The notes under the pieces are model-generated. The model was given only the letters and a program-made list of their open reading frames with translations, did no database searches and had not been told where the DNA came from. 34,852 nt of DNA from a virus. Below are positions 7,687 to 13,066 of the stretch, piece by piece. Location: positions 1 through 34,852 of the IMG/VR virus record IMGVR_UViG_3300046534_000098; one strand, 5' to 3'. A program made the translations under genes and the position numbers. Every line of letters starts with the position of its first letter. The first letter of the stretch is position 1.

Positions 7687-7884
7687 TTAAAACCATTTAA
7701 AAGCAAATCCGTACAGCACGCCAGCAACAAAGCTGACTACGCCGACCGCACAAGCAAACGCAGTTAAAAAATAAAAATCAATGCTTGACGGGTGATTCAA
7801 GTACTTTAAAACCAAGTTGCCAAACTTGTAAATGCCGCTTTTGTGTGTCATAAGGTTTGTTCTCCAAAGTGTTAGTTGAATCAT
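7687..7884 (-). CDS. Small membrane protein (65 aa)
   Basis: The C-terminal half contains one strong hydrophobic helix (FYFLTAFACAVGVVSFVAGV, about residues 38-57), so the product is probably an inner-membrane protein. The start at 7884 overlaps the upstream wHTH gene stop as ATGA, which favours this start over an internal Met at residue 12. I do not recognise a family. Such small membrane proteins in phage early operons often alter host physiology or superinfection, but nothing in the sequence shows this. Confidence 0.6.
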   Translation of the reverse strand: MIQLTLWRTNLMTHKSGIYKFGNLVLKYLNHPSSIDFYFLTAFACAVGVVSFVAGVLYGFAFKWF

Positions 7885-8664: not shown

Positions 8665-9427
8665 TTTTTACTCCTAGAATTCCACGCATCATTTCTCTGA
8701 TGTGTGCTGGTGGCGGTGCGCCTGTTTTGTGGTCGTCTTCAACCTTGCGGAGCGCTGCGTCTTGGCTGTAAGGCACAGTGCTGCGAACAACGTCTGAAGC
8801 CTGTTGTGCAAACGATGCCTTGGCAGCAGTTTGCTTGCGAACCCAATTGCGCCATGTTGCGTCCCATTTGAGTTTTACACCCGAACTACCAGAGACTGAT
8901 GACCAGTAGTCTTTAAACTCCTCAAACACCTTGCGTAAATCCAAATCTGGTCGTTCGGTTTTTGACCATGCAACCAATTCAGCGTTAGGCTTCCAGTCTG
9001 ATGGCAACCGCGTACCACGCGTTGCTGTCTTATCTTTGGTTATTGGTTTATGGTTATTAGTTAATGGTTCTTGGTTTATGTTTAGTTGAACGTCCGTTGA
9101 GCGGACGTTAGACCTACGTTCAGCAGACGCTTTACCTGCGCGTGACGCTTGCTCAATTTTGCCCTTGAAGGCTTGTATTTCTTTGTCGGCACGCGGGTGT
9201 ACAAAGTCACCATCAATGAGTTCAAAGAATTCGTTAAGAACAATATCCACAATGTCTGCGTGTTCGCGCATACCAATTTGCCTAGCAACCATAGTGCTAT
9301 CAAGGTTCATTGGTTTTTCGTGAAGGTAGTAGGCATCAAGTAAACGCCTGTACGCCAAGTCCTCAAGCAAACTGAGGTGGCGTGTGTGACTTGCGTAGTC
9401 ACCGATGTTAAATTGGTAGTAGTGCAT
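8657..9427 (-). CDS. DUF1376 (YdaU-like) replication initiation protein, lambda O-like
   Basis: A 256-residue protein with the DUF1376 signature at its N-terminus (MHYYQFNIGDYASHTRHLS, then LEDLAYRRLLDAYYLHEKP), a low-complexity linker at about residues 105-140, and a C-terminal segment (FEEFKDYWSSV... WDATWRNWVRKQ, about 168-195) like that of lambda O-type initiators. Family members bind the phage origin and recruit a helicase or loader. The linker codes an AT-rich array of heptamers and an adjacent hairpin that look like the replication origin. No separate helicase or loader is visible, so the host's would be needed. A promoter with extended -10 lies about 93 bases upstream. Confidence 0.85.
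   Translation of the reverse strand: MHYYQFNIGDYASHTRHLSLLEDLAYRRLLDAYYLHEKPMNLDSTMVARQIGMREHADIVDIVLNEFFELIDGDFVHPRADKEIQAFKGKIEQASRAGKASAERRSNVRSTDVQLNINQEPLTNNHKPITKDKTATRGTRLPSDWKPNAELVAWSKTERPDLDLRKVFEEFKDYWSSVSGSSGVKLKWDATWRNWVRKQTAAKASFAQQASDVVRSTVPYSQDAALRKVEDDHKTGAPPPAHIREMMRGILGVKNA
9038..9109. other. Candidate replication origin: six tandem heptamers plus hairpin
   Basis: On the minus strand six AAC(C/T)-containing heptamers repeat with exact 7-base spacing at 9038-9079 (consensus near AATAACC), AT-rich, inside the linker of the DUF1376 gene. Ten bases away is a perfect 8-base inverted repeat (AACGTCCG at 9089-9096 and CGGACGTT at 9102-9109, loop of 5). In lambdoid phages the origin iterons lie within gene O, so this placement fits. 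The heptamers also encode an NxxPxT-type heptapeptide, which alone could explain the period, so function is inferred. Confidence 0.55.
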
Positions 9428-9916: not shown

Positions 9917-9951
9917 ATCTCATTATTTGTGTGCAAATTTATTTTACACAA

Positions 9952-9968
9952 TTAGGGAAAACCCCTAA
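9952..9968. promoter_or_regulatory. Operator-like palindrome 1 in the divergent control region
   Basis: TTAGGG, a 5-base centre ending AAC, and CCCTAA form perfect 6-base arms. A second site of the same design lies at 10227-10243. This one sits between the leftward gene at 9916 and the rightward promoter near 9972-9999, so a bound protein could control both directions. The binder is unknown. Confidence 0.5.
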
Positions 9969-9971
9969 ACA

Positions 9972-10012
9972 TTGCTGTGTGTTTTCTATGTCATAATAAA
10001 CACATACCAACC
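9972..10012 (+). promoter_or_regulatory. Candidate rightward early promoter 1
   Basis: TTGCTG (9972-9977) and TAATAA (9994-9999) are spaced by 16 bases. The sequence ATAAACACATACCAACC (9996-10012) overlaps the -10 and is repeated exactly at 10269-10285 in front of the next gene, so the start-site region is duplicated. It would drive the 63-aa gene at 10029. Confidence 0.5.
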
Positions 10013-10028
10013 CCACAGTAGAGACAAG

Positions 10029-10220
10029 ATGACCGCACAAGAACAGATGACAGCAAAAAGAATATCAGTCGGTGATGACGTTTGGGTCAACTACCAAGGC
10101 ACAGTTTGCACTGGTGTAGTTTTCGGCTTTACACCTAAGCGTGTCTTAGCAACCCATGACGGTCGCTGGTGTGGTGATGTACCACAGCCTTACTCACCAA
10201 AAAACGTTGAAAAAAAATAA
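10029..10220 (+). CDS. Hypothetical protein (63 aa), first gene of rightward arm
   Basis: I chose ATG at 10029 because it lies just downstream of the promoter region; an upstream ATG at 9972 lies in the -35. The 63-residue product contains RISVGDDVWVNYQGTVCTGV and FGFTPKRVLATHDGRW, which look like a small beta-barrel (SH3-like or Tudor-like) module. I do not recognise a family. It is followed by an AT-rich gap with the second operator and promoter. Early host-takeover proteins are often of this size; that is inference. Confidence 0.6.
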   Translation: MTAQEQMTAKRISVGDDVWVNYQGTVCTGVVFGFTPKRVLATHDGRWCGDVPQPYSPKNVEKK

Positions 10221-10226
10221 CAAAAA

Positions 10227-10243
10227 ATAGGGTTAACCCCTAT
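10227..10243. promoter_or_regulatory. Operator-like palindrome 2
   Basis: ATAGGG, TTAAC and CCCTAT form 6-base arms of the same architecture as the site at 9952-9968, located 25 bases before the repeated ATAAACACATACCAACC element (27 bases in the first copy). The repetition of palindrome plus downstream element at matching distance suggests one regulator for both promoters. Confidence 0.5.
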
Positions 10244-10285
10244 TCAAACGTGTTTATTTAGGTTTAAGATAAACACATACCAACC
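10243..10285 (+). promoter_or_regulatory. Candidate rightward early promoter 2
   Basis: TTCAAA (10243-10248) and TAAGAT (10265-10270) are 16 bases apart, followed by the 17-base repeat 10269-10285 that also occurs at 9996-10012. An AGGAGA ribosome site then precedes the ATG at 10302. The -35 overlaps the last base of the palindrome. Confidence 0.5.
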
Positions 10286-12628: not shown

Positions 12629-12775
12629 ATGGACAAAAAAGACCCAAAAAAATACTGCTCAGTGCGTATGTCGCTCGACCTTTTTAACCGCATCACCGCG
12701 CTGGCAGGCAAAGAGCAACGGTCGTTCACAGGGCAGGTGCTGTTCCTACTTGAAAAAGCGCTTGCTGCAAAGTAG
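12629..12775 (+). CDS. Ribbon-helix-helix (Arc-like) DNA-binding protein (48 aa)
   Basis: ATG at 12629 follows an AAAGGAATACATC ribosome site. The 48-residue product shows the RHH layout: a basic strand (KKYCSVRMSLDLFNRI, residues 7-22) whose alternating residues would enter the major groove, then helix A (LFNRITALAGKEQ) and helix B (FTGQVLFLLEKALAAK). Arc-type proteins act as dimers or tetramers on operators. It is the only RHH protein here and a good candidate for binding the palindromes at 9952 or 10227; that link is inference. Confidence 0.75.
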   Translation: MDKKDPKKYCSVRMSLDLFNRITALAGKEQRSFTGQVLFLLEKALAAK

Positions 12776-12806
12776 GGTAATCACTTAGAAATGAGTTGAA
12801 AGTTTA

Positions 12807-12835
12807 TTCACTTTGTGTTGCCATGTGTGTAGAAT
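12807..12835 (+). promoter_or_regulatory. Candidate promoter for the second rightward operon
   Basis: TTCACT (12807-12812), 17-base spacer, TAGAAT (12830-12835), preceded by TGTG so a TG lies close to the -10. It lies in the only real gap of the rightward arm (12776-12868) and is followed by an AGGAGA ribosome site before ATG at 12869. This leader resembles that of the gene at 10302. Confidence 0.55.
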
Positions 12836-12868
12836 GACATACATTGCAACACAATAGGAGATTCCAAA

Positions 12869-13066
12869 ATGACCAAAGAACCCGTATTTGTTCGTCAGCA
12901 CAAAGACGACCCAGAAATAATTGAGGTGTACTCAATGCGCAAGACCAGCCAAGGTCCACAGTTAGTTTTGTGGGCAGCAGTTCACCTAGACCTTTTAGAC
13001 AGCCTTGGTTTCGATTGGGCCACAGATGACCTTGCTGACTTCCAACTGGCGCTGGTTTCCAAATGA
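12869..13066 (+). CDS. Hypothetical protein (65 aa)
   Basis: Strong ribosome site (AATAGGAGATTCC) before ATG. The product MTKEPVFVRQHKDDPEIIEV continues QGPQLVLWAAVHLDLLDSLGF and is soluble; no family recognised. It heads the second rightward operon behind a promoter and its stop is coupled (ATGA) to the next small gene, the first of five such overlaps. Confidence 0.65.
   Translation: MTKEPVFVRQHKDDPEIIEVYSMRKTSQGPQLVLWAAVHLDLLDSLGFDWATDDLADFQLALVSK

Follow-up and report, generated by a model that had tools for sequence, protein, structure and literature searches.

Leftward and rightward genes diverge near position 9,930 of the window, the 34,852-base virus record of a tailed freshwater phage whose terminase shares 40-55% identity with those of the closest named phages. 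The leftward side encodes a DUF1376 primosome-type protein and a DUF3310 protein, and the rightward side an Erf recombinase, a wHTH protein and an RHH protein. Two of the rightward genes are each preceded by a palindrome and an identical 17-base element, which raises the question of whether these two parts form one control unit, and whether the protein that reads the palindrome is encoded by the phage or by its host. A separate palindrome, ACGTCCGTTGAGCGGACGT, lies at 9090-9108, inside the leftward primosome-type gene.

Repeated elements upstream of two rightward genes

The original prediction placed the palindromes TTAGGGAAAACCCCTAA and ATAGGGTTAACCCCTAT upstream of two copies of a 17-mer, ATAAACACATACCAACC (9996-10012 and 10269-10285), with gaps of 27 and 25 bases and an overlap between the 17-mer and a candidate -10. 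All of this is correct, and the overlapped -10 boxes are those of the promoters that we term P1 and P2 (Table 1). Plain 6-N5-6 palindromes are frequent, with 23 in the window, so the weight rests on the shared sequence and spacing rather than on symmetry. Neither the palindrome pair nor the 17-mer repeat is a chance match: WTAGGGN5CCCTAW occurs twice in the window against 0.00 expected, with two occurrences in 0 of 100 shuffles, and the 17-mer with up to three mismatches occurs twice against 0.11 expected. The -35 boxes at both promoters are poor. No leftward promoter could be placed with confidence; the P1 palindrome is a possible candidate control site for the leftward operon.

Table 1. Features of the divergent region and of the three promoter modules
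Feature	Position	Strand	Remarks
Leftward gene 1, divergent from P1	9740..9916	-	ORF
P1 palindrome TTAGGGAAAACCCCTAA, centre -44 from predicted start	9952..9968	+	Kept in L114, L116, L139, L112
P1 -10 CATAAT, TG one base upstream (extended -10)	9992..9997	+	Same place in relatives
P1 discriminator and 5' leader AAACACATACCAACC, predicted start A10004	9998..10012	+	Leader comparison
P1 leader element AAACACATNNCAAC	P1 leader
Rightward gene 1, 63 aa	10029..10220	+	Weak phrog_2251 match
P2 palindrome ATAGGGTTAACCCCTAT, centre -42 from predicted start	10227..10243	+	Pattern match
P2 -10 TAAGAT	10265..10270	+	Conserved in L114 and L139
P2 discriminator and 5' leader AAACACATACCAACC, predicted start A10277	10271..10285	+	Leader comparison
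Predicted P2-driven gene, 100 aa	10302..10604	+	phrog_3633
Arc-like RHH protein gene, candidate regulator	12629..12775	+	Stop codon overlaps P3 palindrome
P3 degenerate palindrome TAGGGTAATCACTTA, centre -62 from predicted start	12773..12787	+	Overlaps RHH gene stop codon
P3 inverted repeat, -10 box at loop	12814..12853	+	Predicted read-through RNA hairpin, dG -24.9, z -4.0
P3 -10 TAGAAT, sigma70 type	12830..12835	+	Relatives also have a P3 -10
P3 ribosome site AGGAG	12856..12860	+	Start codon 12869

Conservation and helical phasing of the palindrome

The palindromes are conserved in related phages, with the consensus TAGGG[T/A]AAAC[A/C]CCTA. Relatives of the window (L112, L114, L116, L139, L083, L004 and others) keep the palindrome at P1 and/or P2, and carry a weaker form behind the RHH gene, at a third promoter, P3. 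Measured from predicted starts, the palindrome centre in these relatives lies at -42 to -44 at P1 and P2 and mostly at -62 to -64 at P3; in contigs with another leader variant it lies at -63, with one case at -53. Relatives and other-leader contigs together give 16 centres at -42 to -44, one at -53 and 13 at -62 to -64. When the P2 protein was used as a query for relatives, no matches were returned. With the palindromes conserved and their spacing matched, sequence comparison supports the single regulator that had been suggested for P1 and P2; the outcome named in advance as refuting it, palindromes not conserved in related phages, was not seen.

An independent viral scan for TAGGGTAAACACCTA returned at least 120 stretches, with 99 non-redundant sites listed. 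Many of the other phage sites among these 99 adjoin TTGAC, which falls at +8 from the palindrome centre in 12 cases (background 0.2) and at +19/+20 in 13, and -10-like boxes fall at +30/31, +40-42, +50-53 and +61/62. For the phasing test, one representative was taken from each flank-independent cluster, giving at least 55 phage loci. Among the 55 loci listed, 42 boxes were in phase and 22 out of phase, with 20 in-phase and 34 out-of-phase positions available, and the power at a 10.5-bp period was 10.4 (jitter 0/4000). The reverse orientation, used as an internal control on the same listed loci, had 12 boxes in phase and 23 out of phase, a power of 0.2 and a jitter result of 3366/4000. Distances to the predicted start cluster at about 42, 53 and 63 bp, in one orientation only. 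Placement that is both phased and one-sided points to an activator touching RNA polymerase; we read this as activator geometry from general knowledge of CRP-like activators. Counting against activation, a good TTGACA adjoins some of the palindromes, and such promoters would have less need of an activator.

The matched spacing could also reflect common descent rather than regulation, if palindrome and leader had spread as one mobile promoter cassette. Tandem palindrome and leader copies do occur within the window's family, and promoter cassettes that shuffle modules are reportedly on record for T4-type phages. We consider this explanation very improbable, since the 55 listed loci have no detectable flank similarity and yet keep the phasing without keeping the exact distance, and since the leader is present at one of these 55 independent loci (among the matches listed). 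It is more improbable still, to the point of being hardly credible, that the palindromes are RNA hairpins or terminators. Their arms are GGG/CCC, and a terminator-like structure is predicted on the minus strand at 10245-10225, but on the plus strand the arms at 9952 and 10227 lack the following T-run that, with a G+C stem, makes an intrinsic terminator, and such a reading leaves the promoter phasing unexplained.

A literature search for the palindrome string found no phage paper, and a search of plasmids gave weak unrelated matches only. The named phages in which a near-exact site was found have Limnohabitans and Xylophilus as hosts.

The 17-mer as part of a promoter and leader

The suggestion that palindrome and 17-mer make up a single control unit was not borne out, as the two parts occur separately: a leader of the 17-mer type is present in many phages that have no palindrome. 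A role for the 17-mer as an operator was likewise rejected, because unrelated phages without the palindrome still have it next to a -10 box. By sequence comparison, the 17-mer is the end of a sigma70-type -10 followed by a discriminator, a predicted start site and a leader. Its general form, from a looser viral scan, is TATAAT-AAACAC-A(+1)TNNCAAC, followed by a ribosome site. The last 15 bases occur exactly at 117 or more sites in viral contigs, in at least five groups without flank similarity; among the matches listed, a -10 hexamer lies directly upstream at 38 of 117 sites against about 2 expected, and 32 of these 38 have a ribosome site and start codon downstream. For the variant AAACACATCGCAAC, again among the matches listed, the -10 is present at 45 of 53 sites, every one of the 45 with a ribosome site and start. 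This variant, which relatives of the window use at P2 and P3, falls into at least 13 independent groups and frequently follows a full TTGACA.

In leader variants with a frame-opening ATGACA or ATGGCA, the first base of the start codon is the seventh one after the -10, pointing to this base as the transcript start. These variants, in which AAACAC runs directly into ATGACA or ATGGCA (L313, L323, L326, L342 and others), have the look of leaderless mRNAs whose start codon coincides with the predicted start of the transcript. A further multi-copy promoter, TTTTACTTTTATTC-N-TGTTATAATAAACACATACCAACC, was seen in L027, L070, L091, L097 and other phage contigs, on one strand per contig.

A single genome may hold as many as 13 leader copies, almost all of them on the same strand, compared with 0-3 control matches per genome. 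Named carriers are Krischvirus GEC-3S, Brandy and RB49, Synechococcus phage ACG-2014f and Stenotrophomonas phage RAS14. The leader is absent from nine well-known phages that were examined (T4, KVP40, Aeh1, Syn9, SPO1, Felix O1, P-SSM2, N4 and HTVC008M), and those without it, such as T4, SPO1 and N4, rule it out as a universal phage feature. In 257 Gb of bacterial and archaeal genomes, the exact 17-mer had 14 matches, of which none lay behind TATA and none had a ribosome site and start codon; with 0 of 14 in promoter form, the 17-mer was rejected as a host promoter signal. No phage paper was found in a literature search for the leader string. What a phage gains from fixed first bases that recur in E. 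coli, Synechococcus and Stenotrophomonas phages, and at none of the scanned bacterial promoters, is a question that these results raise.

A third module and its predicted hairpin

A third, degenerate module, P3, occupies 12773-12869 and was absent from the original prediction. Its -10 lies at the loop of an inverted repeat, and relatives likewise have a long inverted repeat whose loop contains the P3 -10. The read-through RNA of the relatives is predicted to fold at -23 to -33 kcal/mol, with z mostly between -4 and -6.5, and in most of them the P3 ribosome site is paired in this predicted structure; the hairpin of the window ends just before AGGAG. RNA beginning at the predicted P3 start is predicted to have an unstructured leader. 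On these folding models, read-through RNA would have its P3 ribosome site covered by the hairpin. The upstream arm is variable, partly through changes that preserve G-U pairs, and the arms match in both leader variants, a pattern that fits selection on the RNA as far as sequence comparison goes.

Candidate regulators

The RHH protein encoded at 12629 had been named as a candidate regulator, as had the two wHTH proteins at 7881 and 12153. The RHH protein is indeed present across the window's family: the 30 fetched loci that carry it belong almost entirely to this family and its close kin. The candidacy does not extend to other site-bearing phages. PF03869 was too insensitive, missing even the window's own RHH protein, and a family HMM was used instead; this found none in Limnohabitans phage DC31 or Xylophilus phage Lumi, both searched as whole genomes, nor in the other unrelated site-bearing phages examined, with one distant Arc-type match of another kind in Xylophilus phage Lumi. 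No protein family common to all site-bearing phages was found, many of these being partial contigs in which small proteins are easily missed. Because unrelated phages without a common gene carry the site, its regulator is more likely a host than a phage protein, and a host-encoded regulator is favoured by these comparisons.

In the competing explanation, which we think rather unlikely, the Arc-like RHH protein that the phage itself encodes (12629) would bind the palindromes, and through them repress or autoregulate P1-P3 in the style of an early-to-late switch. It would account for the presence of the RHH gene in P3-bearing relatives and for the overlap of its stop codon with the P3 palindrome, and the site of the Arc-type RHH protein AmrZ, GGC-AAAAC-GCC (PMC3325190), has the same 5-bp linker as GGG-AAAAC-CCC at P1. 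Against this, an equally phased palindrome is found in phages where this RHH family was not found, helical phasing is unnecessary for simple repression, and a comparison of the window's protein with solved RHH proteins found no homology by sequence. By analogy, an RHH protein of either phage or host would be a fair candidate for the regulator.

We took the likely phage host from the two named phages. In support of a host factor, TAGGGWAAACMCCTA with at most one mismatch has 122 matches in 121 genomes of one Burkholderiales family against 36 for a reversed control, a 3.4-fold excess. Against it, 399 Burkholderiales genomes showed no enrichment of the exact palindrome (2 matches, 2 in the control), and the placement of the host form differs. 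Many of these 122 matches are TAGGGAAAACCCTTA. About nine of the host sites read precede one orthologous acetyltransferase-like gene, mostly with 25-base spacing, and TAGGGAAAACCCTTA together with this gene would form a host regulon. In the Burkholderiales sequences L553, L554, L557, L561, L562, L564, L567 and L590, TAGGGAAAACCCTTA stands exactly 25 bases before the acetyltransferase-like start; in L571 and L588, a sensor-kinase-like gene, by eye resembling DctB, has palindrome-like sites upstream. The host form lies beside the -10, a promoter geometry different from that of the phage sites. As the same site in phages, TAGGGAAAACCCTTA was rejected, being weakly phased and having many apparent chance matches in coding sequence. 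Given its differing geometry and little phasing, it may belong to another protein.

These host sites bear on a further explanation, improbable in our judgement, in which the palindrome is the repressor operator of another protein and its spacing is set by RNA polymerase contact. Promoter-adjacent palindromes are often operators, and the related sites in host genomes adjoin the -10. Upstream positions of -42, -53 and -63 with strict orientation are, however, typical of activators, and we know of few operators phased in this way.

Proposed mechanism

The explanation that we prefer, and regard as moderately probable from the sequence evidence, is that P1-P3 are sigma70-type early promoters sharing one regulator, most likely an activator and more likely a host protein. 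Host RNA polymerase would read all three as sigma70-type early promoters, and the same regulator would bind TAGG-N7-CCTA at each (degenerate at P3). It would most likely activate, given centres at the class II and class I positions of -44, -42 and -62 and the poor -35 boxes here, though many of the other phage sites adjoin TTGAC. The downstream part would be separate: the -10, the discriminator AAACAC, the start A and then a leader without structure that runs up to a ribosome site. Phages of many kinds have this form in common. With the P3 promoter in the loop of an inverted repeat, the P3 ribosome site should be hidden in RNA that reads through from P1 or P2 and accessible in RNA started at P3.

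We also put forward, tentatively and as a possibility that may well prove wrong, that phages commonly hijack an undescribed freshwater Comamonadaceae-like transcription factor: dozens of them, unrelated to one another, would carry helix-phased TAGGGTAAACACCTA to switch on early promoters, besides a cross-host phage form, TATAAT-AAACAC-ATNNCAAC, that is apparently unused by bacteria. If so, one short sequence would predict promoters across many uncultured phages, narrow their likely hosts and serve as bait for the regulator.

Comparison with known systems

CRP-type class I and class II activator sites are palindromes near -42 or -62, helix-phased and on one side of the promoter. The window-type site is alike in lying near -42 or -62 of predicted starts on one helical face; to our knowledge, its sequence is unrelated to any known activator site.

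The AmrZ/AlgZ operator amrZ1 of Pseudomonas, bound by an Arc-type RHH protein, has two half-sites around an AAAAC linker (PMC3325190). Two G-rich half-sites and a 5-bp A-rich linker are also found at P1, whereas the half-sites here are GGG/CCC with TA flanks, and the AmrZ sites lie at -93, -161 and -282 whereas the phage palindromes are phased at -42. An RHH protein is encoded alongside the site in the window's family, but none of this family was found in the unrelated site-bearing phages examined.

In the T4 gene e and I-TevI leaders, the promoter lies inside a hairpin that hides the ribosome binding site (PMC3014915). P3 likewise lies within an inverted repeat of which both arms are present only in read-through RNA, and in the relatives its ribosome site, or the edge of it, is predicted to be closed in that RNA and free in its own transcript; it differs in having a sigma70-type TAGAAT where T4 uses a late promoter. 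Early promoters of RB49 prefer C at -3 to -1 (PMC1524935). These Krischvirus promoters have other -35 regions and belong to an unrelated phage, but share with the window a -10 followed by a ACACATACC-type leader.
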